A stretch of 64,000 nt of DNA from the NCBI RefSeq assembly GCF_010119975.1, contig NZ_CP048222.1, forward strand, positions 4,172,501 to 4,236,500, given 5' to 3'. This document shows positions 5,280 to 44,685 of the stretch, in pieces; the stretch's first letter is position 1; each line of letters opens with the position of its first letter. Both the position numbers and the translations under genes were made by a program. The notes under the pieces are model-generated. The model worked only from the letters and a program-made list of their open reading frames with translations. It was not told the origin of the DNA and did not search any database. This DNA is from Rhodocytophaga rosea. Lineage in GTDB: Bacteria > Bacteroidota > Bacteroidia > Cytophagales > 172606-1.

Positions 5280-5356
5280 TCACCCAATTTGATAGGACAG
5301 GCATCACCCATCAGGACAGGCATCACCCATCCATTCGTTTTTCAATGTTATCACCC
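5280..5356. repeat. ATCACCC direct repeats, including an exact 19-bp tandem duplication
   Basis: TCACCC starts at 5280, 5304, 5323 and 5351. Two copies lie in an exact 19-bp tandem duplication, AGGACAGGCATCACCCATC, at 5294-5312 and 5313-5331. The repeats are about 190-270 bp upstream of the -7 box of the secreted-protein gene (read as GGGTGAT on its strand) and 110 bp left of the IS element. They could be regulator sites or slippage. The rest of the 5020-5469 gap shows no gene. Confidence 0.6.
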
Positions 5357-5469
5357 CTATTGAACCATACTATATACTCAGGTATAGCATAGAATTTAGG
5401 TATAAAATCCGCATGACCCGTTAGTGTGATGGTAAATTTTTACTATCTTCAGATATAGGAATGTCATTA

Positions 5470-6332: not shown

Positions 6333-6402
6333 TTAACAACGAGAGGTATGTCTCAATGATATGTATCATCTTTATAAATAGTGTCTTAATCTAATTCAAG
6401 CT

Positions 6403-6795: not shown

Positions 6796-6836
6796 TTTTA
6801 TTAGACGTAATCTTTTAGGCACTAGCATATATAAAG

Positions 6837-7346: not shown

Positions 7347-7394
7347 ATTTCAATTCCCTGCAGCTACTATTTAGGGAATCTCTCAACCCATACT

Positions 7395-7916: not shown

Positions 7917-7942
7917 TTCATCTGCTCGTTTATAAAAAAAAT

Positions 7943-7983
7943 TACAGCCTTACTTTGCCAGAAAAGAGCAAAATAAAGCTGTA
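7943..7983. terminator. Terminator-like hairpin between convergent genes
   Basis: TACAGCCTTACTTTGC pairs with GCAAAATAAAGCTGTA over 16 positions with two weak pairs. It lies between the stop codons of the acetyltransferase and trxB genes. It is stronger as a minus-strand RNA, where the two weak pairs become G-U. Confidence 0.5.
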
Positions 7984-8004
7984 TATGGATAATAACTTGA
8001 AAAA

Positions 8005-8955
8005 CTAGGCTACCACATTAGTAACCGGAGTTTCTATAGCTACCAGGTAACGTTCTGCTTCCAGAGCAGCCATACAACCAGAACCGGCAGCAGTAATGGC
8101 TTGCCGGTAATGTCTGTCCTGAACATCGCCACAGGCAAATACGCCAGGTATATTGGTTTTAGTAGAATCCGGCTGGGTAATAATATATCCTTGCTCATCA
8201 AGGGTAATATACTTGCTAAACACATGTGTATTCGGCTGATGGCCAATGGCCACAAAGAATCCATGAATTGGAATTTCCTGTGTTTCGCCTGTCACTGTAT
8301 TTTTGATACGTACCCCATTTACCGTAAAGTCTCCCAGAATTTCGTCTGTTTCGGTATTCCAATGTACAATTATATTAGGCGTATTCAATACCCGTTGCTG
8401 CATGATTTTAGAAGCACGCATAGTATCTCTCCGTATCAGCATATGCACCGTTTTACAAAGCTTAGATAAATATAAGGCTTCTTCACAAGCTGTATCTCCG
8501 GCACCTACAATGGCTACATCATGCCCCCGGTAAAAGAATCCGTCACACACAGCACAAGCAGATACGCCACTTCCATTCAGTTTTGACTCGGAAGGAATAC
8601 CCAGCCACTTGGCAGTAGCGCCGGTAGCAATAATCACAGTATCCGCAGAAACTGTTTTCTCATCGTCAATGACAACTTTGTGAGGATGGCTGGAGAAATC
8701 TACAGCTGTTACTACCCCATACTGTACATCTGTACCAAACCGCTCTGCCTGTTTTTTGAATAATTCCATCATTTCAGGGCCAGTTACGCCATCCGGGAAA
8801 CCAGGATAATTTTCTACATCATTGGTAGTGGTAAGCTGGCCTCCCGGCTGATTGCCCACATACATGACAGGTTTAAGGTTAGCTCTGGAAGCGTAAATAG
8901 CCGCTGTATATCCGGCAGGGCCGGCACCAATTATCAAGCATTGAAGATGTTCCAT
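8005..8955 (-). CDS. trxB: Thioredoxin-disulfide reductase
   Basis: 316 aa, full family length. It has an N-terminal FAD-binding motif (LIIGAGPAGYTAAIYASRA, about 7-25), a redox-active CAVC pair (Cys134 and Cys137, followed by DGFFYRGHDVAIVGAGD), an NADPH-binding GAGDTACEEA motif (about 151-160), and the C-terminal FAD segment GVFACGDVQDRHYRQAITAA. It transfers electrons from NADPH to thioredoxin in the cytoplasm. It is 42 bp downstream of arsM in the same direction. That placement suggests it may supply reducing power for ArsM and other thiol systems, although this could equally be the general cellular copy. Confidence 0.96.
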   Translation of the reverse strand: MEHLQCLIIGAGPAGYTAAIYASRANLKPVMYVGNQPGGQLTTTNDVENYPGFPDGVTGPEMMELFKKQAERFGTDVQYGVVTAVDFSSHPHKVVIDDEKTVSADTVIIATGATAKWLGIPSESKLNGSGVSACAVCDGFFYRGHDVAIVGAGDTACEEALYLSKLCKTVHMLIRRDTMRASKIMQQRVLNTPNIIVHWNTETDEILGDFTVNGVRIKNTVTGETQEIPIHGFFVAIGHQPNTHVFSKYITLDEQGYIITQPDSTKTNIPGVFACGDVQDRHYRQAITAAGSGCMAALEAERYLVAIETPVTNVVA

Positions 8956-8997
8956 ATATGTATTTTTCTATATAACAATTTTTTACCTATGATTGGT

Positions 8998-9891
8998 TTA
9001 TTTGCAACACCCTGCATCACAGCCGCAAGTAGTATCTGCTGCCAGGGTTTCTGCTTCTTGTAAACCTGTTTTCTCAAACTGGATTTGTGGTTTCTCAGCG
9101 TACAAAGTTATACTGTAAATACCTGTACCAGATTCTTTGAAGGATTTTAGTTCTTCCCCAGAAATATAGTTTAATAACGTTTCATCAGGCAAACGGATCA
9201 GTTTTTCTTTCTGCACCTGAATGTTTACAAAACCAGTTTCCTTCACAATATCCAGGTATTCCTCTTTATTAATTGCCCCGGATACACAACCGGCATACAT
9301 TTCTGCTTCCTGTTTTAAAGTTTCCGGCAACTCTCCCTTGATAACTACATCCGAAATGCTAAAATGCCCGCCTGGTTTTAGTACCCGGAAAGTTTCGCTG
9401 AACGCACGTTTTTTGTCTGGCACTAGGTTTAATACGCAATTACTCACCACCACATCGGCCAGATTATCAGCAACAGGCAGGTTTTCTATATCACCCAACC
9501 GGAACTCTACATTGTTGTAACCTAGTTTGTCTGCATTCAAACGGGCTTTGGCAATCATAGCTTCCGTTATATCTACGCCTATCACTTTCCCTGCTGCACC
9601 AGTTTCCGCCCGGGCTACAAAGCTATCATTTCCGGCACCAGAACCCAAATCTATTACAGTATCTCCCGGTTTAATCTGCGCAAATTGTGTGGGCAATCCA
9701 CACCCTAAGCCTAAGTCTGCTTCTTCCGTATAACCTGCCAGGCTTGAGTAATCTTCGGCAAAGGGAATGGCATCTGTCGGACTGCAACAGCCAGAACCAC
9801 AACAGGAAGTCTGGTTGGTTTCCTTACTTTGCAGCGCAATTTCGCTGTACTTTTCTTTTACAATTTGTTTGAGTTGATCTGATGTTTGCAT
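8998..9891 (-). CDS. arsM: Arsenite S-adenosylmethionine methyltransferase
   Basis: 297 aa. The class I Rossmann SAM-binding motif (VIDLGSGAGNDSFVAR) is at about 79-94. The three conserved ArsM cysteines are recognisable at C64 (LGLGCGLP), C152 (VSNCVLNL) and C202 (YAGCVSGA), which coordinate As(III). Extra cysteine clusters lie near the N-terminus (SCCGSGCC, 29-36) and at the C-terminus (CGCDAGCCK), as in many bacterial ArsM. It methylates arsenite stepwise to mono-, di- and trimethyl species. An ArsR-type palindrome (9914-9929) lies just upstream of its start, between arsR and arsM, so it is probably arsenite-inducible. No arsenite efflux gene (acr3/arsB) or reductase (arsC) is nearby. Confidence 0.95.
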   Translation of the reverse strand: MQTSDQLKQIVKEKYSEIALQSKETNQTSCCGSGCCSPTDAIPFAEDYSSLAGYTEEADLGLGCGLPTQFAQIKPGDTVIDLGSGAGNDSFVARAETGAAGKVIGVDITEAMIAKARLNADKLGYNNVEFRLGDIENLPVADNLADVVVSNCVLNLVPDKKRAFSETFRVLKPGGHFSISDVVIKGELPETLKQEAEMYAGCVSGAINKEEYLDIVKETGFVNIQVQKEKLIRLPDETLLNYISGEELKSFKESGTGIYSITLYAEKPQIQFEKTGLQEAETLAADTTCGCDAGCCK

Positions 9892-9913
9892 GGAAGTAGG
9901 GTTTAATTGTTAT

Positions 9914-9929
9914 AATGTAATATTACGAT
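9914..9929. promoter_or_regulatory. ArsR-type operator upstream of arsM
   Basis: The core GTAATATTAC is palindromic and followed by GAT. It matches the better copy at 10294-10309 (ATCGCAATATTACGAT) at most positions. It sits 23 bp before the arsM start, as expected for an internal ArsR-controlled promoter. Confidence 0.65.
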
Positions 9930-9948
9930 TAATGAATGTAAAAAATTT

Positions 9949-10278
9949 TTAACAACAGTTTTTGGCTGGAACATACAAATCAAATAAGCCATTTAAGGCT
10001 GTCTTTATTTCGTTCCATACCTGCTCATTTAAGCAATAACAAACACTGGTTCCTTCTACTTCGCCTTTTAAAATCCCAACCTGTTTGAGTTCTTTCAAAT
10101 GTTGCGAAACCGTAGCCTGTGCCAATGGTAATTCATCCACCAGATCACCGCAGATACAAGTCTGGTTTTTGAGCAGGTATTCAATAATGGCAATTCTAGC
10201 CGGATGAGCTAGTGCTTTGGCATAAGTGGCCAGCTGATTTTGCTGGCTGGTAAAATTCTCTGTTTTGGTTACGCCCAT
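9949..10278 (-). CDS. arsR: ArsR/SmtB family transcriptional repressor
   Basis: 109 aa. The winged helix-turn-helix reads [17 protein letters not shown], then [21 protein letters not shown] and a wing around [13 protein letters not shown]. Likely metalloid-binding cysteines are in TCICGD (about 41-44, before the recognition helices), CYC in the wing (about 80-82) and the terminal CC. Such repressors release DNA on binding As(III). Its own start is 16 bp from a perfect-core palindrome at 10294-10309, which indicates autoregulation. It heads the arsR-arsM-trxB cluster, with a second operator before arsM. Confidence 0.93.
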
Positions 10279-10293
10279 CTTCTTAATTATTAT

Positions 10294-10309
10294 ATCGCAA
10301 TATTACGAT
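10294..10309. promoter_or_regulatory. ArsR-type operator upstream of arsR
   Basis: ATCGCAATATTACGAT is a 16-bp palindrome with one asymmetric pair, centred on AATATT. The same core recurs upstream of arsM. It is immediately before the arsR start, the expected place for an autorepressor site. Confidence 0.75.
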
Positions 10310-10360
10310 AAAAGTAAATGTATAGCAAATGTACTTATAAATATATTTTTCGTGCATGTG

Positions 10361-11164
10361 CTATTTGCTTACTGCCATACTAGAATAGCATAGGTCACAA
10401 AATTGCGATACAATCAATACTGTCTCTCGGGGACGTTCAAACATGCCCATGTGCGCCGTTTCGGGGAGTATGTGTACAATACTCCGTTTGGGGAGAAAAA
10501 ACTGAGATTTGGCTGCTTCGAGTGGAACGGCTTCATCTTCACGCCCGGCAATGAACAGCACCGGATAATTGGCTTCCTTCAACACCTGTGTCCGATCTGG
10601 CCGATCCCGCATGGCTTTGGTAACGGCTACGGCTGTTTCTTTAGGCGTTTGTATTACCATCTGGCGGGCTTTCTCCATATCAGGGGCAAGAGTTTCACGT
10701 TTTCCTTTAAAGAATAAGGGTGGTACAAAACTTTCTGCAAAAGGTTCAAGACCATTTTTTTCGATAAAATCGGCGGTTTTATTCCGGGTATGTTTCTTTT
10801 CCTCACTATCGGCATAGGCTGTAGAATGAAACAGACACAAACCTTTTACTAGTAACGGATGCTTTTCAGCCAGGGCAAGCGCTACATAGCCACCCAGAGA
10901 ATGGGCAACGATCACACAAGAATTAATCGAAAGTGTTGCAAGAAGTTTAGCCACTTCTCCAGCCATCTCCTCCACATTTGTATAATGGGTATTGCCTGTG
11001 CTTTCTCCAAATCCTGGCATATCCGGAATGAGTGTAGTAAAAGTTTCCTGAAGGTTAGGAGCAAAATTTTCCCAGACTTGTTTGCTCTCGCAGAAACCAT
11101 GTAGAAACACAACCGGATATCCCTTTCCGGAAAGTTGGTAAGCCAGATCAGCGTTTGATGACAT
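10361..11164 (-). CDS. Alpha/beta hydrolase
   Basis: 267 aa. The alpha/beta hydrolase fold is clear: oxyanion motif VVFLHGFCESKQVWENF (about 19-35), nucleophile elbow VAHSLGGYVALALAE (Ser in the SxG turn, about 107), acid Asp in AGREDEAVPLEAA (about 212) and catalytic His in LPETAHMGMFERP (about 239). The lid region (about 130-185) is helical. Similar proteins include esterases, epoxide hydrolases and MhpC-like C-C hydrolases; the substrate is not predictable. It lies 82 bp upstream of arsR in the same orientation, but the arsR operator suggests it is not part of the arsenic unit. Confidence 0.9.
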   Translation of the reverse strand: MSSNADLAYQLSGKGYPVVFLHGFCESKQVWENFAPNLQETFTTLIPDMPGFGESTGNTHYTNVEEMAGEVAKLLATLSINSCVIVAHSLGGYVALALAEKHPLLVKGLCLFHSTAYADSEEKKHTRNKTADFIEKNGLEPFAESFVPPLFFKGKRETLAPDMEKARQMVIQTPKETAVAVTKAMRDRPDRTQVLKEANYPVLFIAGREDEAVPLEAAKSQFFLPKRSIVHILPETAHMGMFERPRETVLIVSQFCDLCYSSMAVSK

Positions 11165-29757: not shown

Positions 29758-30675
29758 GAAGCTGTTTAGGATTTAGTTTTTAGTTTGATTTTGCGTAAAA
29801 AGCGAACTGAAAAAGCAAGCAGCAGTAAGGCCACCCAATTGATGGCTTTCTTTTCAAATCTAATTAATAGTGCTTTAAAGCTGTCCATCCAAGCATTAGC
29901 GTGTTCAATAACGGTTCGATATTTATATAGCTCTTCATCAAAATACTGATAATAAACAGTTTCTACTGCCCCATTTCTTGGATAGTGGCAATGTTAGCTT
30001 CTATTTCTTTTTCCTTGCATAGTTTTCTCAACTCTTGTGAATCAAAACCTGCATCTGCATTCAAAAACAAACCTTTTATCTCTATACCTGCTTTGGAGAG
30101 CATCTCACAGAGTTCTTCAAATAAAGTCTCAATATTAAATAGATCATGGTGCTGACCTTCTTGTGGGCTGGCACAAGCTAACATTTGCCCCTGATTATCA
30201 GCTAAAAACAAAGAATTAGTCGTCTTAGCCGCTTTTCTCCCTTGATAACCCACTGCTTCTCCTCCTTGCTTACAAATGGTATGGCTGCCATCCAACTGCC
30301 CACTTGACAAATCTAATTTATCCTTATGGGCCGATAAAATGGCTATCCATACTTTGGTCCAACTTCCGTCTTTGACCCATTCATTATAATGATAATACAC
30401 TCCCTGCCAGGTAAGGCTTTCTGCGGTAAAAAATTGTTGTAAGGGCAATAATCTCCATTGGCAACCTGTTTTTAACCGATATAAAATCAAGCCTACCACT
30501 GCTCTCATCAATTCTGTACTACATTCTTTGCCCCGCAAGCCTACCGAAAGATTTGCTAATATGTATTTATCTATGCTATCTTTATCTAAGATTTCCATTG
30601 AGTATGTTATTTTATGCTTTGCAACACAAAATTCACACTTGTTTGGAAATCTTTTTCATTATCCTAAACAGCTTC
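29758..30675 (-). mobile_element. IS5-family element, inactivated
   Basis: About 918 bp. Perfect 15-bp inverted repeats GAAGCTGTTTAGGAT at 29758-29772 and the reverse of 30661-30675 bound the transposase remnant. No clean target duplication is visible (left flank ...ATACTAT, right flank GATACTT...). The element sits directly upstream of the PD40/TPR lipoprotein gene. Confidence 0.82.
29766..30598 (-). pseudogene. IS5-family transposase with single-base frameshift
   Basis: The first frame runs from ATG 30598 for 211 codons and ends at 29963 after NIATIQEMGQ. The continuation is in the frame one base back: HYPRNGAVETVYYQYFDEEL, then VIEHANAWMDSFKALLIRFE and a stop at 29766-29768. One base lost around ACT-ATC-CAA-GAA would explain it. 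The DDE residues are in SSGQLDGSHT (Asp), LFLNADAGFDS (Asp) and VIEHANAW (Glu, now out of frame). It is therefore inactive unless frameshifted on purpose, for which I see no slippery A-run. Confidence 0.85.
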
Positions 30676-30831: not shown

Positions 30832-31590
30832 TTAGCTTGTCCAGCGGCTGAGGAACTGGCTGAATGCATCCTTGTACTGGTCGCTTACGGTGATGGTAAT
30901 ATCTCCTATTTGTACGCTATTTTTGGTAATGGCTTTTACTTGTTCCAGGGAAACAATAAAAGACCGGTGAATCCGCATAAACCGCCTGGCTGGCAGCTTT
31001 TCTTCCAATGCTTTGAGGCTGGTTAAAGTAAGAATAGGATTTTTATTTCCCTGTACATACACTTTTACATAATCTTTTAATCCTTCAATATAAAGAATGT
31101 CTTTAAAGGCTACCCGTACCAGCTGGTATTCTACTTTCAAAAACAAATATTCTTCCTCCGGTTCTTCCTTTGCGGGAAGTGCCAATGGTATAGTTGGTTG
31201 CTGGAAGCGCTCTGCATAAGAACGGGCTTTGTTGGCGGCTCTTAAAAACTCATCATAGCCAAAGGGTTTCAACAGATAATCGAGGGCATCTACTTTATAT
31301 CCTTCTATGGCATACTGGTTAAAAGCAGTAGTAAAAATAATTCTAGGACCTGTATTGGCTCCACTGCGGTCTAGTACCCTGGCGAGTTCGATCCCATTCA
31401 GATCAGGCATTTGAATATCTAAAAAAATAAGGTCTACCGCTTGTTCATGTAGTCCACGCAAGGCTTCTATCGCACTGCTGTAACGGCCTGCCAGCTTTAA
31501 AAAAGGCGTTTGCTCAATAAACGCACACACCAGGCCCAAAGCCAGGGGTTCATCATCTACAGCAATACAACTGAGGGTAATAAGGGTCAT
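30832..31590 (-). CDS. LytTR-family response regulator
   Basis: 252 aa. Receiver domain (about 6-125): the acidic pocket VDDEP (11-15), phospho-acceptor D58 in LIFLDIQMPDLNG, switch Thr in FTTAF, and Lys in LLKPFG. LytTR DNA-binding domain (about 145-250): FLKVEYQLVRVAFKDILYIE and RFMRIHRSFIVSLEQVKAIT. LytTR domains bind pairs of short direct repeats about 21 bp apart; such repeats occur in the promoters to the right (see the four regulatory features). It overlaps the kinase stop codon by 4 bp, so the pair is translationally coupled. Confidence 0.95.
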   Translation of the reverse strand: MTLITLSCIAVDDEPLALGLVCAFIEQTPFLKLAGRYSSAIEALRGLHEQAVDLIFLDIQMPDLNGIELARVLDRSGANTGPRIIFTTAFNQYAIEGYKVDALDYLLKPFGYDEFLRAANKARSYAERFQQPTIPLALPAKEEPEEEYLFLKVEYQLVRVAFKDILYIEGLKDYVKVYVQGNKNPILTLTSLKALEEKLPARRFMRIHRSFIVSLEQVKAITKNSVQIGDITITVSDQYKDAFSQFLSRWTS

Positions 31591-32687
31591 GACAGATCAA
31601 GGGTTAGGTGAACCAGATATTCATGTTGGGTAGTATCTTCAGCTACAGATAAATTATAATGATCAGGATACAGCAAATCTAGCCGGCGGCGGGTGTTAAC
31701 TAAACCAATGCCATTGCCTTGCTCCAGAGATTTGTTTTGTTCGGAGAACATAGTATTACGAACCTTTACTTCCAGCTGGCCGGGTTGCTGCTGCAATGCA
31801 ATACTAATGCGGCTGGCATGCAAGGAACTTACGCCATGTTTAAAGGCATTTTCTACAAAAGGAAGCAGGATCATAGGCGCAATTTGTACATCTCTCAGGG
31901 GAGTAGGTTTCTGAAATGAAATTTCCACCTTATCTGTCAGGCGCAATTGCATGAGCTCGATATAATCCTGGATAAAAGCAATTTCCTGGCTCAGCAATAC
32001 CATATCTTTTTGGGTATCATACAGCACATAGCGCATCATGCGGGAGAGTTTAAGCAAGGCTTGCCTGGACGATTCCACATTGAGCATGGTGAGCGCATAA
32101 ATATTGTTGAGGGTATTAAAAAAGAAGTGCGGATTGATCTGTGCTTTCAGAAATGAAAGTTCGGAATTAGTCCGCTGCTGTTCCAGGGTTTTGCGAAGCA
32201 AGGCTTCTTCCTGCCGCAGCAAGGTATCTTTCTGAGACTTCTGTACGGCAGCTATGGTAGTACCAATGCCTAAGGCCATTAAAGTACTGAAAAAGGGAAA
32301 GGTTAATGCCCACAAAGGAACGCTTTTGCTTTCACCGGGAATATGCTTTTCCGGATGAAACGCCTGGTGCATCAATGTTGGCAAATTCAGGGAGTATTCG
32401 GTTAACCAGATCAGGGCGATCACGACAAGAGTGGTTCCAAAAGCAGATAAAACGAACAGATTGATTTTATTTTCGAATAAAAATTTTGGCACCCAAATCA
32501 ATATATTTATATAGAAAGCTCCTATCCACAAACAGAACAATATTCCTTGCTTTATCCAGAACTCGGCAGGCAGGGTCACATTCATATTGAGTGGCGAAAA
32601 TACCAGCAGCATTAATCCCAATAATACCCATACTAATCCGTGAACCAGGAATAAAGGAAGACGACTGAAAATACTTGCCATGGCCAT
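31587..32687 (-). CDS. LytS-type sensor histidine kinase
   Basis: 366 aa. Four membrane helices (about 12-32, 47-66, 77-97, 125-147) with short loops and no large sensor domain, then a coiled segment and a His_kinase (PF06580-type) domain: phospho-acceptor H187 in AQINPHFFFNTLNNIY, followed by HATPase motif LLPFVENAFKHGVSSLHA and GNGIGLVNTRRRL. Signals are probably sensed in the membrane. It is the first gene of the kinase-regulator unit; its promoter carries a -7 box TACCTTTG at 32725-32718 and an upstream CCATCGGTA at 57 bp, the shared motif described below, which points to autoregulation. Confidence 0.95.
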   Translation of the reverse strand: MAMASIFSRLPLFLVHGLVWVLLGLMLLVFSPLNMNVTLPAEFWIKQGILFCLWIGAFYINILIWVPKFLFENKINLFVLSAFGTTLVVIALIWLTEYSLNLPTLMHQAFHPEKHIPGESKSVPLWALTFPFFSTLMALGIGTTIAAVQKSQKDTLLRQEEALLRKTLEQQRTNSELSFLKAQINPHFFFNTLNNIYALTMLNVESSRQALLKLSRMMRYVLYDTQKDMVLLSQEIAFIQDYIELMQLRLTDKVEISFQKPTPLRDVQIAPMILLPFVENAFKHGVSSLHASRISIALQQQPGQLEVKVRNTMFSEQNKSLEQGNGIGLVNTRRRLDLLYPDHYNLSVAEDTTQHEYLVHLTLDLS

Positions 32688-32717: not shown

Positions 32718-32804
32718 CAAAGGTACAAGCACTAACATTCAGAAGGGAAATTAATCTACCACTTCCCCATATCTACCGATGGCAGGGCAGTTTTTTACCT
32801 ATTA
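32718..32804 (-). promoter_or_regulatory. Kinase-operon promoter with TCGG-core site (regulon copy 4)
   Basis: On the minus strand the -7 box TACCTTTG is at 32725-32718 and CCATCGGTA is at 32782-32774, so the site begins 57 bp upstream of the box. A weaker copy, TAATAGGTA, is at 32804-32796 (22 bp apart rather than 21). The block at the TCTAT offset reads TAGAT. Confidence 0.6.
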
Positions 32805-32843
32805 TCTGGCTGTAACCTGTTATCAAACAGCGTAAATCACCGC

Positions 32844-32929
32844 TTATCGGCCCAAATCTGTAGATGGTCGGCATTTGACGGCAGCAGGTCTATCGCATTT
32901 TTTCTATACAAAAGCAGGCGTTTACTTTG
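32844..32929 (+). promoter_or_regulatory. Promoter of the small secreted protein gene, TCGG-core direct repeats (regulon copy 1)
   Basis: Repeats TTATCGGCC (32844-32852) and TGGTCGGCA (32865-32873) are 21 bp apart. TCTAT-nnn-ATTTTT follows at 32889-32902, and the -7 box TTACTTTG is at 32922-32929, 57 bp from the second repeat start. It lies in the 321-bp divergent gap 32688-33008, where nothing else of note was found. Confidence 0.65.
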
Positions 32930-33008
32930 GTTCATCAATCAGCCGGAACAGGCACTGATACAATCAAATTTAAAACACGAATCATACACATTTTAAACAA
33001 CGAAACTT

Positions 33009-33398
33009 ATGAAAACGCTATTTGCCTCCCTATTCATTGCCCTTACTGTAAGTGCTTCTTCTCTTACTTTTGCCCATTCTTCCAGCGATCCACTTCCATT
33101 AGATGCTGCTGTGGTGGTTCGTGCGCAGGACATGAAAATTGATGTAATTACCCAGGCCGGTACACAGGAAAACATAGTGATCCGCTTAAAGGATGCGGAT
33201 GGCCACACCCTGACCAAAACAACGGTAGAACAAAGTGAGAAGGCTTCTCTTTCCCGTTTTGATGTATCAAACCTTTCCGATGGCGTGTACAAAGTAGAGA
33301 TCAGCGATGGCATAACTAAGCAGGTAAAAGATTTCACCATTCAAACGACCATACCAACTACGTCTGTTGAGCGTACTATATCGCTTCCTGCACTCTAA
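33009..33398 (+). CDS. Small secreted protein, DUF3244/sorting-domain-like
   Basis: 129 aa. A signal peptide (to about 23, ASSLTFAHSS) is followed by a single beta-rich domain: ENIVIRLKDADGHTLTKTTV, LSRFDVSNLSDGVYKVEISD, KDFTIQ. It parallels the protein at 4591-5019 over the entire mature part. Divergent from the LytS/LytTR genes and carrying the shared promoter motif, it is the most likely primary target of that system. A near-perfect terminator hairpin follows at 33413. Function unknown. Confidence 0.75.
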   Translation: MKTLFASLFIALTVSASSLTFAHSSSDPLPLDAAVVVRAQDMKIDVITQAGTQENIVIRLKDADGHTLTKTTVEQSEKASLSRFDVSNLSDGVYKVEISDGITKQVKDFTIQTTIPTTSVERTISLPAL

Positions 33399-33412
33399 TC
33401 ACCTTTAGAAAT

Positions 33413-33453
33413 TTACATACAGCCAGGTTATTAGTAGACCTGGCTGTATGTAA
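33413..33453 (+). terminator. Rho-independent terminator after the secreted protein gene
   Basis: TTACATACAGCCAGGT and ACCTGGCTGTATGTAA form a perfect 16-bp stem with a 9-base loop, 14 bp after the stop codon. It separates the gene from the receptor gene's own promoter. Confidence 0.75.
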
Positions 33454-33487
33454 ATAAAGCACAAATTCCTGATTTTATCCCATCCGG

Positions 33488-33573
33488 TCATCGGTTAAAA
33501 CAGGCTAGTCGTCGGTGTCTCCCGGTAAGCAGTCTATTGTATTTTTTTGCGATAAGCCCTACTTGTACCTTTG
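33488..33573 (+). promoter_or_regulatory. Receptor gene promoter with TCGG-core direct repeats (regulon copy 2)
   Basis: Repeats TCATCGGTT (33488-33496) and TCGTCGGTG (33509-33517) have a 12-bp spacer and 21-bp period. TCTAT-nnn-ATTTTTTT is at 33533-33548, and the perfect -7 box TACCTTTG is at 33566-33573, again 57 bp from the second repeat start. The receptor ATG (33618) is 45 bp further on. Confidence 0.7.
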
Positions 33574-33617
33574 TTTTATTCCATCACGAAATATATAAAA
33601 AGCTAAAATACCCATCC

Positions 33618-36563
33618 ATGAAAAAGGTTTTAATTCTGCTGACTTTCCTAGGCTACTGTCAGTTTCTGTTGGCACAAACTCCCGCTGGCAATGGCCAGCC
33701 TGGTGCCGAAGCCACAGCCAGATTAGTAACAGCAGGTAAAGGACGAATTTCTGGAACCGTAACGGATGCCAGTAATAGCGAACCTGTTGCTTATGCGACT
33801 GTTGCCCTGATGCAGCCATCCAGCAAAACACCTGTGGATGGAGCTGTAGCAGATGAGAACGGTAAATTTTCTATTACTAAAGTAGCAGAGGGAGACTATA
33901 AAGTAGTGATTTCTTTTATAGGTTATGAAGACAAAGTGATAGACAATATCAAGGTTTCCGATAACAAAGCAGAAATCAACTTAGGAACCATTAAAGTAAG
34001 CCCTACGGTGCAGGAATTAAATGAAGTGACTGTACAAGGGCAAAAAGACCTGATTGAAGAAAAAGTAGACCGCACTGTATATAATGCCGAAAATGATGCC
34101 ACCAACAGAGGAGGCGATGCTACCGATGTATTGCGGAAAGTACCCATGTTATCCGTTGATTTAGATGGCAATGTGTCTATGAGAGGCAGCCAGAACCTGA
34201 AAGTATTAATTAACAACCGTCCTTCCACCATTACAGCCGGAAGTGTAGCAGATGCTTTAAAACAAATTCCTTCCGACATGATTAAATCCGTAGAGGTGAT
34301 CACTTCGCCTTCTGCTAAATATGATGCCGAAGGTTCAGGCGGTATTATCAACATCATCACCAAGAAGAATAATTTACAAGGCTTTTCGCTGAATGTAGAT
34401 GGCAGCGCTGGTACCAGAGGTTCTGATCTGCGGATGCAAGGCAGTTATAATAAAGGCAAGATGGGCTTTACCTTAGGTGGTGGCGGAAGATTTGGATATA
34501 ACATCAAAGGAGAATTTGACAATACCCAGCAAACCTATTCCTACGATGAAAGTGGTATTCTGACAGGTACATTCTTAAATACCCAGCAGGCATCTACCAG
34601 AAATCAGTTTTTGTTTGGCCGCTATAACTTCGGATGGGACTACAATATCAATAAGAATAATTACCTCAACGCTTCCGTTCAGTTTGGTGCCCGTAACCGC
34701 AATACCTACCAGGATAATTTATTTACCCAATCGTATCAGAATGATGCCTTTATTGGGAGCGGCCTTCGTAATGTAGATGTATCGGATTTATCCAATAATG
34801 TAGACGTGAACCTGAACTATACTCATAATTTCAGTAAGCCCGGACAGGAACTGAGCATCCTTTCTCAGTATAGCCGGAATAATGCCACTAACAATTTTAT
34901 AAATTCCGTTTTACAGGAGGATGATTTATCGATAACAAGCCGGTTAAAAAACCTCAATGAAAGCTATAACCAGGAAACTACTGTTCAGATCGATTATCAG
35001 ACACCGCTTGCTAAAAATCAAATGCTGGAACTGGGTGCAAAAGACATTATCCGCCAGGTAACCAGTAATTTTACCTACTATGCGGCTGATGGCCCTACCG
35101 GAGAATATGTTCCTTTAACAGACACCAGGCTTACTAATGTGTTTAATTACGATCAGAATGTAACCTCAGGATATTTGTCGTATACGCTTAACTTTTTAAA
35201 GGATTATACTCTAAAAGCAGGCTCCAGATATGAATATACGACCATCAATGCTAAGTTTCAGCAGGAACAGGATGAGATTACCATTCCTTCGTATGGAACC
35301 CTGGTGCCTAGTGTAAATATTTCTAAAAAGTTGAAAAATGGTAATACATTAAAAGCCGCTTATAACCGTCGTATTCAGCGTCCTTCCCTGCAATTTTTAA
35401 ATCCCAATGTGCAGGCTTCCAATCCGCTTTCCGAAACGGTGGGTAATCCTGACCTGAGACCAGAGTTTACCAATAACTATGAAGTAGGCTATAATACTTA
35501 TATCAAAAAAACATCTTTGTCCTTTTCGGCCTTCATGCGCAATACCACTGGGTCTATCCAGGCAAACAGAACCCCGGTTGGAGATGTGATTCGTACCACG
35601 TATGAAAACATTGGGAAAGAAGATGCCTATGGGTTGAGTGTATTCGGCAATGTGAGTCTTTCCAACAAACTGAGCTTTAATGCAGGCACAGATATGTATT
35701 ATGCAGTGCTGAATAACAATGTATCGAATGCTATGTACAAGGCAAGCAACGAAGGATTTGTGTACAATATCCGGGGGATGGGTAGTTATACCATTGGCGA
35801 TGGCTGGGGATTACAATTATTCGGATTTTACCGCGGCCGGCAAGTGCAGTTACAAGGTTTTCAGGGAGGATTTGGTATCTATAGCCTGAGTTTGCGGAAA
35901 GAGTTCAACGATAAAAAGGCAAGCATTGGCTTCGGTGCTGAGAACTTCTTTACTACGGCTGTGAAAATGCGCAGTGAACTCGCTTCTCCCATACTTACTC
36001 AATCTAGTGTAAATACCATGCGCAATATGAGCTTTAAAGTTACGTTCAGCTACCGTATCGGTAAAATGACCATGAATACCAGACGTAGTAAATCGGTAAC
36101 AAATGATGATTTAAAAGGCAATGAAGGCGGCGGAAATGCACAGGAAAGTGGCGCACAAATGGGAGGCGGACAGCCGCAAACACCCAGAGGCACACAAGGA
36201 CAAATGCCTGCTGTACTGCCTAAAGGAACACAAAACACTAAGCCCAATACTACGCCTGCAGATAGTACCCAGACAGAAAACGCTGCTCCGGCAGAACTGA
36301 GCGGAAAATGGGCTGGCAAAATGGGTATGTTTGATGCTACCTTCAACCTGAAAGCAGCAGGTGATCAGTTAACCGGCACTATGTCTACTCAAATGGGAGA
36401 AACTCCGATTACCAATGGAAAAATAACCGGCAATACCTTTTCCTTCACGGTATCTGTAAATGGCAATGAAATTCCTTTTCAGGGAAAACTGGAAGGTGGT
36501 CAACTGTTAATAGATACTGAATTCAGAGGCAATCCTGTTAGAGGAAATTTTATCAAGCAATAA
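33618..36563 (+). CDS. Outer-membrane beta-barrel receptor (TonB-dependent type) with extra C-terminal domain
   Basis: 981 aa from the ATG at 33618. The longer frame would begin at 33537, upstream of the promoter box, so the inner start is right. Signal peptide (to about 20), carboxypeptidase-regulatory-like domain (about 43-125, RISGTVTDASNSEPVAYATV), plug (about 140-250, VDRTVYNAENDATNRGGDAT, SGGIINIITKKNN), then OMP_b-brl_3 type barrel (about 260-830, ending FKVTFSYRIGK). After the barrel come a Gly/Gln/Pro-rich linker (about 845-895) and an extra domain of about 85 residues, LSGKWAGKMGMFDATFNLKA to GNFIKQ, which looks like a calycin-like beta fold. Substrate unknown. It is under the shared LytTR-type promoter motif. 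Confidence 0.88.
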   Translation: MKKVLILLTFLGYCQFLLAQTPAGNGQPGAEATARLVTAGKGRISGTVTDASNSEPVAYATVALMQPSSKTPVDGAVADENGKFSITKVAEGDYKVVISFIGYEDKVIDNIKVSDNKAEINLGTIKVSPTVQELNEVTVQGQKDLIEEKVDRTVYNAENDATNRGGDATDVLRKVPMLSVDLDGNVSMRGSQNLKVLINNRPSTITAGSVADALKQIPSDMIKSVEVITSPSAKYDAEGSGGIINIITKKNNLQGFSLNVDGSAGTRGSDLRMQGSYNKGKMGFTLGGGGRFGYNIKGEFDNTQQTYSYDESGILTGTFLNTQQASTRNQFLFGRYNFGWDYNINKNNYLNASVQFGARNRNTYQDNLFTQSYQNDAFIGSGLRNVDVSDLSNNVDVNLNYTHNFSKPGQELSILSQYSRNNATNNFINSVLQEDDLSITSRLKNLNESYNQETTVQIDYQTPLAKNQMLELGAKDIIRQVTSNFTYYAADGPTGEYVPLTDTRLTNVFNYDQNVTSGYLSYTLNFLKDYTLKAGSRYEYTTINAKFQQEQDEITIPSYGTLVPSVNISKKLKNGNTLKAAYNRRIQRPSLQFLNPNVQASNPLSETVGNPDLRPEFTNNYEVGYNTYIKKTSLSFSAFMRNTTGSIQANRTPVGDVIRTTYENIGKEDAYGLSVFGNVSLSNKLSFNAGTDMYYAVLNNNVSNAMYKASNEGFVYNIRGMGSYTIGDGWGLQLFGFYRGRQVQLQGFQGGFGIYSLSLRKEFNDKKASIGFGAENFFTTAVKMRSELASPILTQSSVNTMRNMSFKVTFSYRIGKMTMNTRRSKSVTNDDLKGNEGGGNAQESGAQMGGGQPQTPRGTQGQMPAVLPKGTQNTKPNTTPADSTQTENAAPAELSGKWAGKMGMFDATFNLKAAGDQLTGTMSTQMGETPITNGKITGNTFSFTVSVNGNEIPFQGKLEGGQLLIDTEFRGNPVRGNFIKQ

Positions 36564-36582
36564 TATATTCATATACCACGCT

Positions 36583-36819
36583 ATGTCTTTACCCTGGATA
36601 CATTCGCCTTACTTAGATATTGATTCGATTGCCAGTAGAATTTATGGAACCACCAGCAAGTGGCATACCTATCGTCTGCGCCAGAAAATACAAGGAAGCC
36701 TTCCTTTCGAATCCTGGGAAATTGAACTGCTGAATGAAGTCAAGGAAGAGTTGCTTTCTTATGTAGCACCCAGTTCAACCAGTCTGGGGATACAAACAGA
36801 AGCAAACCGGCAATCATAG
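36583..36819 (+). CDS. Small conserved helical protein
   Basis: 78 aa, no known domain. The sequence MSLPWIHSPYLDIDSIASRI, with KIQGSLPFESWEIELLNEVK, matches a type of short Bacteroidota protein in which a hydrophobic start precedes a helical pair. It is 19 bp after the receptor stop, so it is almost surely cotranscribed with it and would fall under the same regulation. No signal peptide is seen. Function unknown. Confidence 0.65.
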   Translation: MSLPWIHSPYLDIDSIASRIYGTTSKWHTYRLRQKIQGSLPFESWEIELLNEVKEELLSYVAPSSTSLGIQTEANRQS

Positions 36820-36899
36820 CATGGGGTAATTGCGCTTTCTGGTAGAAACAGCAGTAGCTATTCAGGTAAAGTTCCAGTTGACAGTGAGAACAATTCAAG

Positions 36900-36985
36900 C
36901 TATCGGCTGAAAACGGCAAATGATCGATTTTTGTGGTCAAGCCATCTATTTCATTTTTAATATTTCCAATAAGATTGTTAATTTG
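36900..36985 (+). promoter_or_regulatory. YceI gene promoter with TCGG-core direct repeats (regulon copy 3)
   Basis: CTATCGGCT (36900-36908) and TGATCGATT (36921-36929) have a 21-bp period. TCTAT-nnn-ATTTTT is at 36945-36957, and the -7 box TTAATTTG is at 36978-36985, 57 bp from the second repeat start. The geometry equals that of copies 1 and 2. The second repeat is the weakest match of the three. Confidence 0.55.
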
Positions 36986-37079: not shown

Positions 37080-37736
37080 ATGAAAACATTTAGAATTTTC
37101 TTGAGTGTATGGGCTTTAGCCTTCATTTTTAACTATAGCAACCTGGTTGCCGGAGTTGATCCTGGTAAAAATCCAGCCAAAGGTTCAAGCCTGGCTGTAG
37201 ATCCTGCAAAAAGCACATTGACCTGGAATGCTAAAAAAGTAGGTGGTGAACATACCGGCAATGTAAAACTCGCCAAAGGCACACTCGACGTAAAATCTAA
37301 TAAACTGACCGGCGGTACTTTTACCATGGATATGCCTAGCATCACTGTTACGGACGTTACCAATGAGGGCATGAATGGCAAATTAACCGGTCACCTGAAG
37401 TCTGAAGATTTCTTTTCCGTAGAGAAAAACCCAACTTCTACTTTTACCATCACCAAAGCAGAACCTATTGCAAAAGCCAAAGCAGGGGAAGCCAATTACA
37501 AGATCACAGGCAATCTGACTATTAAAGGCATTACCAATACCCTTACTTTTCCGGCAACCGTAAACCTGACCGGAAACAGTGCTCAGGCTACTGCTAAAAT
37601 TGAAATTGACAGAACCAAATATGATATTAAATACCGGGCGGCTATTATCGGAACAGCCGCTGATAAAATTATTGATGATGTATTCACCCTTGATGTGAAA
37701 CTCGTAGCCGGTAAATCTGAAACAGCCAGCAGATAA
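37080..37736 (+). CDS. YceI-family periplasmic protein
   Basis: 218 aa. Signal peptide (to about 25) followed by a YceI lipocalin-like barrel (about 38-215): LAVDPAKSTLTWNAKKVGGE at the start, KLTGGTFTMDMPSITVTDVT, GKLTGHLKSEDFFSVEKNPT, and KYDIKYRAAIIGTAADKII. YceI proteins bind isoprenoid-like lipids in a hydrophobic cavity and are often induced by stress. A strong terminator-like hairpin follows 19 bp after the stop. It shares the promoter motif of the LytTR group, so it may respond to the same signal. Confidence 0.92.
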   Translation: MKTFRIFLSVWALAFIFNYSNLVAGVDPGKNPAKGSSLAVDPAKSTLTWNAKKVGGEHTGNVKLAKGTLDVKSNKLTGGTFTMDMPSITVTDVTNEGMNGKLTGHLKSEDFFSVEKNPTSTFTITKAEPIAKAKAGEANYKITGNLTIKGITNTLTFPATVNLTGNSAQATAKIEIDRTKYDIKYRAAIIGTAADKIIDDVFTLDVKLVAGKSETASR

Positions 37737-40632: not shown

Positions 40633-41679
40633 ATGAAAAACCATGACATTTCCAGGCGGCAATTTTTAGGCACGACCGCTCTATCCTTAGCAGGCATTGG
40701 GCTAGCCACTTCCTCTACTTTTGGTATGCCGGCCATCATAAAAAACCTGGGCAAACCCAATTCAAAAATCAACGGGGTACAAATAGGGGTGATTACCTAT
40801 TCATTCCGGGATTTGCCTGATCAGAGTGCAGAAGCAACATTACAATATATTTTAGACTGTGGAATCAGTGCGGTTGAATTGATGGGCGGTCCGGCAGAGT
40901 CATTTGCAGGTGCTCCAAAAAATCCGGTGAATATGCAGGCTATTTTTCCCCTGATGCGGAAGCGGTACGAAAAACAGGAACTTACGGCAGATGAAACAAA
41001 ACAATTAGATGAAGCAGATGCCCAGCGGAAAGCTTATCAGCAGGAAGTAACCAAATGGCGGCTCTCTGCCCCAATGAATAAGTTTGAACAAATGCGCAAA
41101 ATGTACAATCAGGCGGGCGTTCAGATTTATTGCTTTAAACCAGATGCTTTTAATATACAAAGTTCCGATGCGGAGATTGAATATGGCTTGAAGGCTGCTA
41201 AATTACTTGGAGCCAGTCATGTTTCGCTGGAACACCCAAGTAACGATGCACATACCCTGAAATTAGGTACCATGGCTCAAAAGCATGGAATGAAAGTGGC
41301 TTACCATGGACATGAGCAGCAAACGCCTACTTTCTGGGATACGGCACTTACTCAGTCGCCAGCCAATGCTTTAAACCTGGACATCGGCCATTATACAGCC
41401 GCTGGCTACAATGCGGTTGAGCTCGTGCAGGCCAAACACGACCGCATTCTCAGCATGCATATAAAAGACCGCCAGAATCCTGCAAATGGAAAAGGGAATT
41501 TGCCCTGGGGAACCGGAGACACACCCATCGCTCAGGTACTGCAATTGATGAAAAAAAACAAATATACTTTCCCGGCTACCGTTGAACTGGAATACAAAGT
41601 TCCGGAAGGTTCTACTTCTGTAAAAGAGGTAACCAAATGTGTGGAATACTGCAGAAAGGCATTAGAAAAAAACACTTAG
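40633..41679 (+). CDS. Tat-exported sugar phosphate isomerase/epimerase-like protein
   Basis: 348 aa. A twin-arginine signal (SRRQFLGTTALSLAGIGL, 8-25) is followed by an AP endonuclease 2-type TIM barrel (about 45-345). Barrel motifs: QIGVITYSFRDL-like start (VQIGVITYSFRDLPDQS), CGISAVELMGGPAES, ASHVSLEHPSN, MKVAYHGHEQQTPTF, LNLDIGHYTAAG and RILSMHIKDRQNPANGK, including the metal-binding Glu/His/Asp set. Exported proteins of this sort are common in Bacteroidota next to soluble dehydrogenases, and act on 3-keto sugars or sugar acids. It is 40 bp after the Ig-like lipoprotein gene. Confidence 0.85.
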   Translation: MKNHDISRRQFLGTTALSLAGIGLATSSTFGMPAIIKNLGKPNSKINGVQIGVITYSFRDLPDQSAEATLQYILDCGISAVELMGGPAESFAGAPKNPVNMQAIFPLMRKRYEKQELTADETKQLDEADAQRKAYQQEVTKWRLSAPMNKFEQMRKMYNQAGVQIYCFKPDAFNIQSSDAEIEYGLKAAKLLGASHVSLEHPSNDAHTLKLGTMAQKHGMKVAYHGHEQQTPTFWDTALTQSPANALNLDIGHYTAAGYNAVELVQAKHDRILSMHIKDRQNPANGKGNLPWGTGDTPIAQVLQLMKKNKYTFPATVELEYKVPEGSTSVKEVTKCVEYCRKALEKNT

Positions 41680-41704
41680 GATTCAATCATTCCTTCATCT
41701 TTTC

Positions 41705-41727
41705 AAGCACCTTAGCGGTGCTTTTTT
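41705..41727 (+). terminator. Small Rho-independent terminator
   Basis: AAGCACC-TTAGC-GGTGCTT followed by a T-run, 26 bp after the isomerase-like gene. It may give partial termination before the dehydrogenase gene. Confidence 0.65.
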
Positions 41728-41769
41728 ATTCAAGAAAGCAATCATTATTAACCTAACTTATTTAATTGA

Positions 41770-44685
41770 ATGGCAAAACAAATGTATTCGATCAAAACGC
41801 TCTTGTATGGGCTTGGATTGTTGTTGCTGGTGGTTGGCTTTTGGTCTTTCACTTCAAAGCCAGGTAAGATTCAAGTTTCGCAGGAGAAGCCGGAAGAGAA
41901 CCGTTTCACCAAGACTATTCTCGCCGAAAAACTCGATGAACCAATGGAGTTTATTATACTGGAAACAGGAAAAATCATGTTTGTAGAGCGTAAGGGTAAT
42001 TTGAAAATGTATAATCCGGAAACCAGGCAGGTAAAAACCATTGCTTCTATTCCGGTAAATACCAAATATACCAGCAAAGAAGGCAGAGTAACAGAAGGAG
42101 AAGATGGCCTGCTGGGCATTGTACAAGACCCTAATTTTACACAAAACCACTGGATCTACCTGTATTATTCACTTCCCGGAAGCGAAGCAAAAAATATATT
42201 AACCCGTTATGAACTGAGGGGCGAAGAACTGGTGATGGATTCTAAGAAAGTGCTGTTGGAGATTCCTACACAACGGGAGCAGTGCTGCCATACCGGAGGC
42301 GGAATGGTATTCGATGCCAAAGGAAATCTCTATCTTTCTACCGGCGATAATACCAGTCCCAGAGCTACTGGTTTCGATCCTATTGATGAACGGCCTGAGC
42401 GCGGCCCCTGGGATGCCCAGAAGTCTTCAGGCAATACCAATGATCTACGCGGCAAAATTATCCGTATTCATCCGGAAGCAGATGGAAGTTATACCATTCC
42501 GGAAGGCAATTTATTCCCGAAAGGCACTGCCAAAACCCGTCCGGAGATTTACACCATGGGACACCGGAACCCATGGCGTTTAAGTATCGACAGCAAAACC
42601 GGCTATATATACTGGGGCGAAGTAGGCCCGGATGCCAGTCAGGATTCTCTGCACAGGGGGCCCAGAGGGCATGATGAATTTAACCAGGCCCGCAAAGCTG
42701 GTAATTTTGGATGGCCGCATTTTATTGGAGACAATAAAGCCTACATTGATTTCGATTTTGCTACCAACACTTCGAAAGCTCCTTTTGACCCGGCCAAGCC
42801 TGAGAATAATTCACCCAATAATACAGGTTTAACGCAGTTGCCACCAGTACAAAAAGCGTTTATCTGGTATCCGTATGGTGCCTCTTCAGAATTTCCTATG
42901 CTGGGCAGTGGTGGCCGCAGTGCGACCGGAGGACCTGTTTTCCGGAAAGCAGACTTTGTTGGTGCCAAACGGCCATTTCCAGATTATTATGAGGGCAAAT
43001 GGTTCATTGTAGATTTTATGCGGGGATGGATCATGGTGGTTACAATGGACGAACAAGGCAATTACCAGTCGATGGAGCGTTTTATGCCCAATGAGAAATT
43101 TTCCAGTGCCATTGATATGAAGTTTGGTCCGGATGGAGACTTGTATATTCTGGAATACGGCAGTGCCTGGTTCCAGGGCAATGATAATGCTCGTATTGTG
43201 CGCATTGATTATAATGCCGGAAATAGAAAGCCCATTGTACAAGCCTCTTTAGATAAAAAAGCCGGTTCGCTGCCGCTTAAAATACAGTTATCGTCTAAAG
43301 GTACAAAGGATTATGACCGGGATGCATTGACCTATAAGTGGGAAATTACTTCCAACAAAAAGGCTTTTAAAACGTTTGCTGAGCCTAATCCAACAGTTAC
43401 TTTCGATAAGCCCGGTGTGTACATGGCTACCTTAACCGTTACCGATACAAAAGGAGAAACAAATAGCCAGACGCTGGAAATAAAAGCAGGAAATGAGCCG
43501 CCGGTTGTAAACTTAACCATTACCAAAGGCAATAAAACTTTCTTTTTCCCCAATCAGAATATCGGATATACAGTTACAGTCAGTGATAAAGAGGATGGTT
43601 CACTGTCCAATAGCAAAATTACGCCTGCCCAGGTATCCATGAGCATTGATTATACGCCAGAAGGATTTGACCAAGTGGAAATAGCCATGGGTCACCGCAG
43701 TGCCGATGAATCTGCTGGTTTAGCTACCGGACAAAAACTGATGGATGCCAGCGATTGTAAATCCTGCCATACCGTAGACAAAAAGTCGGTAGGACCTTCT
43801 TTCAAACAGATCGCCCTCAAATACAAAAATGAAGCAAGTTCTACAGATTATCTGGCCAAGAAGATCATTTCCGGAGGTGCAGGTGTTTGGGGCGAAGTAG
43901 CCATGAGCGCCCATCCGCAACTCTCTGTGGCTGATGCAACGGAGATGGCCAAATACATTCTGAGTTTGTCTGAAGAAAAACAGGTTGCCAAAAAGCTTCC
44001 TTTAAAAGGTAACTATGTAACTGCTATTCCTGCTGGAGAAAGTGATAAAGGTAATTACCTGCTAAGAGCGGCTTATACAGATAAAGGCACCAGTAATGTT
44101 CCTGGCATCACGACAGAAAAAGTGATACTACTTCGCAATCCGGCAGTGCAGCCAGAAACAGCCGACACGGCCAAAGGAACCCAGCTCAATACCACGCCAA
44201 CAAAATCTTTTCAACTCATAGGTTCAGGTTCTTATGTTGGTTTCCGGAAAGTAGATCTGACAGATGTGAAAGCGATAGAATTTCTTGCAGTGGCTTCTTC
44301 GCGGAATGAAGCTGCCGGTGGAATGGTGGAAGTGCGTTTAGGTTCGCCAACAGGAAAACTCTTGGGGCAAACGCCGGTAATTGAAGTAACCGATCCCATC
44401 AGAGCGATGCAAAATGCACAAGCGAGCGCTGCTACAACAGCAAAACCAAATACGCCAACACCAGCTTCAACCGCACCTCCGGCTGGAGGCGGAATAAGTG
44501 CTATGATGCGGCGGCTGGCAAAAAATTTACAAGCGCCTATTCCGGCTACTACCGGCATACATGATGTGTATTTTGTCTTCACCAACGATAAGGCCCGCAA
44601 AGACCAGGTGATTATGCAAGTAGTCGAAATTCGTTTTGCAAATAATACTGATACTAATTCCGCTTCTGCTCCAGCGGTAAAATAA
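41770..44685 (+). CDS. Soluble sugar dehydrogenase fused to PKD, cytochrome c and C-terminal carbohydrate-binding-like domain
   Basis: 971 aa. A membrane anchor or signal (about 8-27) precedes a GSDH beta-propeller (about 55-470: EGEDGLLGIVQDPNFTQNHW, REQCCHTGGGMVFDAKGNLY, IYTMGHRNPWRLSIDSKTGY, SGGRSATGGPVFRK). A PKD domain follows (about 485-575, TLTVTDTKGETNSQT). A class I cytochrome c domain (about 640-735) has heme motif CKSCH (663-667). The C-terminus (about 810-970) resembles CBM6-type sequence (FQLIGSGSYVGFRKVDLT, EVRLGSPTGKLLG). The fusion suggests a periplasmic PQQ-type oxidation whose electrons go to an attached heme. It sits last in the 38-45 kb cluster. Confidence 0.87.
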   Translation: MAKQMYSIKTLLYGLGLLLLVVGFWSFTSKPGKIQVSQEKPEENRFTKTILAEKLDEPMEFIILETGKIMFVERKGNLKMYNPETRQVKTIASIPVNTKYTSKEGRVTEGEDGLLGIVQDPNFTQNHWIYLYYSLPGSEAKNILTRYELRGEELVMDSKKVLLEIPTQREQCCHTGGGMVFDAKGNLYLSTGDNTSPRATGFDPIDERPERGPWDAQKSSGNTNDLRGKIIRIHPEADGSYTIPEGNLFPKGTAKTRPEIYTMGHRNPWRLSIDSKTGYIYWGEVGPDASQDSLHRGPRGHDEFNQARKAGNFGWPHFIGDNKAYIDFDFATNTSKAPFDPAKPENNSPNNTGLTQLPPVQKAFIWYPYGASSEFPMLGSGGRSATGGPVFRKADFVGAKRPFPDYYEGKWFIVDFMRGWIMVVTMDEQGNYQSMERFMPNEKFSSAIDMKFGPDGDLYILEYGSAWFQGNDNARIVRIDYNAGNRKPIVQASLDKKAGSLPLKIQLSSKGTKDYDRDALTYKWEITSNKKAFKTFAEPNPTVTFDKPGVYMATLTVTDTKGETNSQTLEIKAGNEPPVVNLTITKGNKTFFFPNQNIGYTVTVSDKEDGSLSNSKITPAQVSMSIDYTPEGFDQVEIAMGHRSADESAGLATGQKLMDASDCKSCHTVDKKSVGPSFKQIALKYKNEASSTDYLAKKIISGGAGVWGEVAMSAHPQLSVADATEMAKYILSLSEEKQVAKKLPLKGNYVTAIPAGESDKGNYLLRAAYTDKGTSNVPGITTEKVILLRNPAVQPETADTAKGTQLNTTPTKSFQLIGSGSYVGFRKVDLTDVKAIEFLAVASSRNEAAGGMVEVRLGSPTGKLLGQTPVIEVTDPIRAMQNAQASAATTAKPNTPTPASTAPPAGGGISAMMRRLAKNLQAPIPATTGIHDVYFVFTNDKARKDQVIMQVVEIRFANNTDTNSASAPAVK

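Follow-up and report, generated by a model that had tools for sequence, protein, structure and literature searches.

The window analyzed here, a stretch of 64,000 nucleotides from Rhodocytophaga rosea (assembly GCF_010119975.1, contig NZ_CP048222.1, positions 4,172,501 to 4,236,500 of the forward strand), harbors genes for a LytS-like sensor kinase and a LytTR response regulator and, divergent from them, genes for a small secreted protein, an outer-membrane beta-barrel receptor, a small helical protein, and a YceI-family protein (Table 1). The kinase and regulator genes overlap by 4 bp. Pfam places Response_reg and LytTR on a single 252-aa protein, as in two-domain regulators, and the kinase joins the PF06580 domain and a conserved His to about four hydrophobic segments (19-residue windows spanning about residues 4-39, 47-71, 74-97, and 123-148), which groups it with LytS/LytTR membrane kinases. 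Of 291 genomes sampled from the order, 91 contain an ortholog of the kinase (E ≤ 1e-58). The loci examined were 81 of 108 kinase places, chosen largely by rank with manual thinning, without the motif described below as a criterion. The position corresponding to D58 of the regulator (the phospho-acceptor) is Asp in 81/81 of these loci and that corresponding to H187 of the kinase is His in 81/81; hence, a phosphorelay between the two proteins is plausible. An IS4/5-type transposase match (DUF4096, 29963-30598) lies directly downstream of the regulator gene. In Flavobacterium johnsoniae coevolved with Burkholderia thailandensis, genes for a LytTR-domain protein and a histidine kinase, bearing neighboring locus tags, were mutated in several lines (PMC10197871).

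The 129-aa small secreted protein gave matches to Por_Secre_tail (1.1e-5) and DUF3244 (2e-4), neither of which reached the Pfam cut-off, and has a 52% homolog in genome G001 of the same genus. For the 78-aa helical protein, there was no Pfam match at E 0.001 or at E 1, its 13 homologs gave only four weak Pfam matches (best E 0.052), and the best Foldseek hit had an E of 1.8; no family was assigned. Its AlphaFold2 model (mean pLDDT 76.8) contains helices at residues 13-21, 26-36, and 44-61, which are possibly HTH-like. Homologs of this protein were found in 7 of 98 genomes, all from family f1, and a receptor or kinase/regulator gene lay within ∼1.5 kb in 7 of the 13 matches, the window's own counted. 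An inverted repeat with 14-bp arms (33415-33451), terminator-like by eye, is present between the small-protein gene and the receptor array. Genes coding for a TIM-barrel protein (AP_endonuc_2) and a GSDH-PKD-cytochrome c-CBM6 protein are located near the module, at 40633-44685.

Table 1. Genes, operator arrays, and -7 boxes of the module and its second copy (window positions unless a locus is given).
Feature	Position	Strand	Remarks
LytTR response regulator (receiver + LytTR domain)	30832-31590	-	Pfam Response_reg 5.5e-20, LytTR 4.8e-19
LytS-like sensor kinase	31587-32687	-	Pfam His_kinase PF06580 4e-25
Kinase -7 box, TACCTTTG	32718-32725	-	76 bp after first half-site; same offset in orthologs
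Kinase-promoter array	32753-32801	-	ATAGG 32801-32797, ATCGG 32780-32776, GTAGATT 32759-32753
Small-secreted-protein array	32846-32894	+	ATCGG 32846, GTCGG 32867, GTCTATC 32888; conserved in G001
Small-secreted-protein -7 box, TTACTTTG	32922-32929	+	
Small secreted protein, 129 aa	33009-33398	+	Resembles a type-9-secretion sorting-domain fragment
Receptor-promoter array	33490-33538	+	ATCGG 33490, GTCGG 33511, GTCTATT 33532
Receptor -7 box, TACCTTTG	33566-33573	+	
Outer-membrane beta-barrel receptor	33618-36563	+	Pfam OMP_b-brl_3 8.9e-96, CarboxypepD_reg, Plug
Small helical protein, 78 aa	36583-36819	+	19 bp after receptor gene
YceI-promoter array	36902-36950	+	ATCGG 36902, ATCGA 36923, ATCTATT 36944
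YceI -7 box, TTAATTTG	36978-36985	+	
YceI-family secreted protein	37080-37736	+	Pfam YceI 5.2e-30
Second cassette copy, same genome	L278 (G000:C1:1980000-1992000), 3475-9565		Kinase-regulator, divergent OMP_b-brl_3, small protein, YceI

The original prediction described pairs of 9-mers 21 bp apart in the three plus-strand promoters, followed at a fixed 57 bp by a -7 box. The repeats were recovered with starts at 32844/32865, 33488/33509, and 36900/36921, and the distance from the second repeat start to the box is 57 bp each time (boxes at 32922, 33566, and 36978). The same 57 bp separates CCATCGGTA (start 32782, minus strand) from TACCTTTG (start 32725, minus strand) in the kinase promoter. 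The 21-bp period of the two-repeat model therefore stands, whereas its number of repeats does not: there are three half-sites, the third lying 21 bp further on, and the TCTAT word noted at a constant offset before each box is this third half-site. Similarly, the site named in the kinase promoter is present, though not as a single site, since it forms part of a whole array (ATAGG, ATCGG, GTAGATT) on the minus strand. Alignment of the window promoters gave the element RTCGG, 21 bp, RTCGR, 21 bp, RTCTATT, T-tract, TnnnTTTG, in which the first half-site precedes the -7 box by 76 bp and the ATTTTT following the third half-site sits near the -33 position. The -7 element of the Bacteroidota housekeeping promoter is TAnnTTTG, and the boxes found at the fixed offset are TTnnTTTG-like at the receptor and TAnnTTTG-like at the kinase. 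In repeat geometry, the arrays are candidate LytTR operators, as the 21-bp period agrees with the ∼9-bp direct repeats and 11-13 bp spacers near a promoter that mark such operators. Direct repeats about 21 bp apart had been taken as known for LytTR regulators, in agreement with the 9-11 nt repeats and 11-13 nt spacers that are usual for them (PMC4847170). Triplet operators at 18-21 bp also exist, as in the case of CoxC (PMC11347149), and the arrays of the window likewise show three evenly spaced half-sites, the third of which has diverged (RTCTATT or GATT type).

A genome-wide motif search, a check of the kind proposed along with the original prediction but with the three-half-site pattern, found RTCGGY-N16-TCGR-N16-RTCTATY exactly three times in 8.98 Mb, all in the plus-strand promoters of the window. 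At up to two mismatches, there were 30 matches in the whole genome vs. 58 for the reversed pattern, indicating that the weaker matches are background, and a looser pattern lacking the third half-site gave 14 matches (two of them window promoters) vs. 71 reversed. When the -7 box was included, two window promoters matched without mismatch and one with a single mismatch, and elsewhere two places had 2 mismatches and 29 had 3, a genome total of 34 vs. 65 reversed. A weight matrix trained solely on four sites from other genera scored the window sites at 45.3, 34.8, and 34.6, with 12.5 at the next-best place in the window and a best of 14.9 in 96 kb of other DNA from the same genome (26 stretches, most of them chosen for a weak match to the pattern). 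The kinase array of the window scored 8.4 with a leave-genus-out matrix vs. -14.4 at the next place. The constant distance to the -7 box in most copies would also be expected of a core-promoter architecture, i.e., a sigma-factor or UP-type element in place of an operator. This is very improbable, as the genome holds only three exact copies and the repeats start 76 bp upstream of the -7 box, past the core promoter.

Across the 291 genomes, the exact pattern had 44 matches vs. 40 reversed (summed controls), and the string itself is thus not enriched. Eighteen of the 44 matches, however, are found no more than 500 bp upstream of a kinase ortholog and in divergent orientation to it, where ∼0.0008 would be expected, and 3 further exact matches lie within 5 kb of one. 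The occurrence of three arrays inside about 4 kb could suggest a chance likeness or one recently duplicated promoter. Such an origin is scarcely credible in view of the 18 matches beside kinase orthologs, the spacers that differ among the three promoters, and the other-genera matrix, which puts all three well above background.

A divergent receptor homolog is present at 54 of the 81 kinase loci, and these 54 represent 19 genera and five families by genome labels. Alignment of these orthologous promoters showed the array (≤2 mismatches) at 47 of the 54 loci, the window included, the best receptor-side array having 0, 1, 2, 3, and 4 mismatches at 15, 25, 7, 3, and 4 loci, respectively. Reversed sequences of the same regions gave none below 3 mismatches. 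The opposite-strand control was unclean (10/54 with ≤2 mismatches), which is attributed to the kinase array and the near-palindromic half-site being read on that strand. Loci without a receptor carried the array (≤2 mismatches) in 3 of 27 cases (Fisher p 2e-11 against 47/54), although 23 of the 27 belong to one genus (g14), so that gene loss and site loss are confounded by ancestry. The 21/21 spacing fits 45 of 52 receptor loci (window and G001 set aside); side peaks, 24 loci at 17/25 and 11 at 24/18, probably stem from imperfect copies of the word (one or two mismatches) lying next to the half-sites. The strongest columns of the alignment are the half-sites and the -7 box, and 11 of the 16 columns in each 16-bp spacer hold at most 0.45 bit. 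TTTG was found exactly 38 bp after the third half-site in 48 of the 54 receptor promoters, i.e., the 57-bp geometry of the original prediction is kept across genera. At two of the three receptor-less loci that carry the array, it faces a 141-aa protein with a signal-like start (G035) and a 412-aa protein (G203); the third, G014, is described below. The small-protein array was seen within this genus only (window and G001), and the YceI array in the window only.

Kinase-side counts were made after masking of the receptor array. RTCGR pairs (≤1 mismatch) at a spacing of 21 were present at 35 of the 54 receptor-bearing and 21 of the 27 receptor-less loci (reversed, 3 and 2), followed by a spacing of 25 at 26 and 11 loci (reversed, 1 and 2), a peak that probably reflects a one-mismatch word adjoining the third half-site. 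The triple RTMGR-21-RTCGR-21-RNNGATT (≤2 mismatches) occurred at 33/54 and 8/27 loci, with none in either reversed set. Owing to these pairs and triples, self-regulation seems to persist at loci where the receptor is absent, with a looser third half-site. The fitted kinase-side alignment was trained on the same sequences, and the fairer test is a leave-genus-out scan, in which, for 47 of 57 loci, the best place led the next by 10 bits or more, not all of the best places being clean arrays. A separate set of 47 kinase arrays was hand-picked from the 57, ten ambiguous or overlapping rows being dropped (L212, L213, L214, L220, L225, L233, L238, L256, L263, and L275) and the positions for L240 and L251 being taken from a separate scan of array distances; in this set, 12 arrays have TTTG itself at the same 38-bp offset and 44 have it there with at most one mismatch. 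The receptor and kinase promoters both keep the array in many loci beside orthologs of the pair. Comparative genomics hence supports the regulon proposed originally, comprising the regulator's own operon, the small secreted protein, the receptor with its small gene, and the YceI protein.

Several genomes contain many paralogous pairs, and the LytTR match is by geometry; it could be argued that another transcription factor binds the arrays and that their linkage to the LytTR pair is indirect. This is improbable because the array stays beside the pair across genera, in the kinase promoter also where the receptor is gone, and because a paralogous pair has a shifted operator, as described below. 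Five receptor homologs (48-52% identity) on Spirosoma/Siphonobacter contigs, where the stretch lacks a close kinase ortholog, showed no array. In addition, the 21-bp direct-repeat geometry fits LytTR domains (PMC4847170).

Other LytS/LytTR pairs in family f1 are likewise accompanied by the receptor and the 78-aa protein. YceI completes such cassettes in a second copy in the same genome (L278), in G001 (L279), and in G006 (L280), while in G005 and G003 (L281 and L282), the receptor and the 78-aa protein occur beside a GSDH gene, and the pairs have diverged (33% identity for the kinase and 27-28% for the regulator). A variant operator, GTCGA-20-GTCGA-21-GTATAAT, is present in L278 and L279, i.e., in two species, as would follow from operators changing along with their regulators; a search with this pattern did not find it in L280, L281, or L056. 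The last of these (G000:C1:3551000-3570000) carries, at 8745-11127, a further LytS/LytTR pair after a homolog of the 78-aa protein, and its array-like stretch has 3 mismatches, which is at background level genome-wide.

Among the matches listed, array-like sites remote from the pair were found at a TIM-barrel/GSDH operon (G235) and an alpha-L-rhamnosidase gene (G222). A GSDH gene in G016 has such a site with 3 mismatches to the pattern that includes the box, a TIM-barrel gene in G283 has one with 2 mismatches, and a second OMP_b-brl_3 gene in G289 has one with 1 mismatch. Two more of the listed matches precede genes for a receiver-only protein (G040) and an 892-aa protein (G050). As homologs of the TIM-barrel and GSDH genes are present downstream in the window, conservation of this site was evaluated at 26 TIM-barrel loci, the window's own included (gene found in 25 of 30 genomes searched). 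Only two of the 26 had the array upstream at ≤2 mismatches, promoter-like in G283 only, and the TIM-barrel gene of the window has no upstream array; an extended regulon was hence rejected as a general feature.

From the arrays, their geometry, their conservation, and their linkage to the pair, all obtained by computation, we infer that the LytTR regulator is the array binder and that it activates instead of repressing; all that is said of the signal is of the same nature. The module is likely to be an autoregulated LytS/LytTR system in which the regulator binds three half-sites and activates its own operon and the receptor operon. Stimulation of the membrane kinase would lead to phosphorylation of the regulator, which would then occupy the array adjoining RNA polymerase. 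With a half-site every 21 bp (two helical turns), three LytTR domains would line up along the same face of the DNA. In both promoters, the TnnnTTTG-like -7 box follows at a fixed distance after the proximal half-site, which is GATT-type at the kinase and RTCTATT at the receptor, where it ends just upstream of the T-rich -33 region. The kinase-regulator operon and, in the opposite direction, the receptor operon would be activated by the bound regulator, and the extra copies of the array would add the small secreted protein in this genus and the YceI protein in this genome.

Judged from site position, activation is more likely than repression, as a proximal half-site adjoining the -33 region corresponds to the position of an activator touching the polymerase. 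The -33 element of Bacteroidota promoters has the consensus TTG, which the T-tract matches poorly, as would suit an activated promoter. The same regulator on the same arrays could instead act mainly as a repressor, with phosphorylation releasing or strengthening the binding, in the manner of CoxC, which represses via three direct repeats over the -35 box (PMC11347149). The proximal half-site is indeed immediately upstream of the T-rich -33 region, but it ends before the T-tract and does not cover it. According to the same paper, RcoM1 and the majority of LytTR regulators work as activators bound upstream of -35 (PMC11347149), and a mainly repressive role is considered unlikely.

Within the activation model, it is possible, though on the whole doubtful, that the kinase and receptor arrays constitute one six-half-site operator with a set helix face that couples both promoters. 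Across genomes, the two divergent arrays have their first half-sites mostly 32-34, 42-45, 53-54, or 63-64 bp apart, with a few cases near 93 and 107 bp, and these steps of about one helical turn would fit a single complex. Helical phasing gave R = 0.92 at 10.5 bp with 13 collapsed values (0.85 at 9.5 bp) and is only suggestive, 27 of the 57 rows having been removed by the filter and related genomes not being independent. Among the 13 values, that of 128 reflects a slip of 21 bp in register at a locus otherwise read as 107, and other rows yielded distances (17, 23, 55, 65, and 132) that are likewise slipped or else ambiguous. Offsets of -47 were rejected, the receptor array having been read on the other strand. 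In G014 (L055, 4824-9290), an RND efflux operon with HlyD and ACR_tran domains takes the place of the receptor opposite the array, at the same 43 bp, which suggests that the pair can exchange its divergent partner. If the two arrays do act as one operator, the receptor and the sensor, which may monitor it, would be made in fixed proportion.

Conservation of the exact operator and promoter geometry across genera provides a consensus for target prediction. The operator is tied to an outer-membrane receptor, and a kinase-receptor pair sharing a divergent operator offers a handle on what such receptors sense. Among the literature matches listed, no LytTR control of an OMP_b-brl_3 receptor, the family to which the present receptor belongs (8.9e-96), was found, and titles and abstract starts among those matches revealed no described system or regulon of this composition. 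The kinase family is widespread in the order, yet no defined LytTR operator from Bacteroidota was found among the matches listed.

LytTR regulators of the PlnC, VirR, and AgrA type have Gram-positive hosts. Their classic sites resemble the present arrays in repeat length (9-11 nt) and spacers (11-13 nt) (PMC4847170) and differ in consisting of two half-sites. YpdA/YpdB of E. coli, similar to the pair described here, combines a LytS-type kinase with a LytTR regulator and direct repeats in the promoter, to which YpdB binds as monomers (PMC4847170). Unlike the present arrays, YpdB has two sites (A and B) with GGCATTTCAT in the yhjX promoter, and the available part of that report does not mention a divergent second array (PMC4847170). 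The closest likeness in repeat number is to RcoM1 of Paraburkholderia and CoxC of Afipia, whose LytTR domain likewise binds three direct repeats spaced by about two helical turns (PMC11347149). These proteins, however, sense CO as one-component regulators, use TTCNNGCA/TTNNNGCN repeats, and have cox targets; the promoter at coxB is of the sigma-70 type, and CoxC acts as a repressor (PMC11347149). The module of the window instead combines a two-component pair and a 21/21 array with a promoter of Bacteroidota type and would target an outer-membrane receptor. In place of the TTNNNGCN half-site and a one-component CO sensor, it shows RTCGG/RTCGR half-sites and a receiver-LytTR regulator, and hence it is not a member of the RcoM1/CoxC type. 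LytTR direct repeats, triplet operators, and Bacteroidota promoters are all known parts; the system and regulon that combine them here are a new variant.
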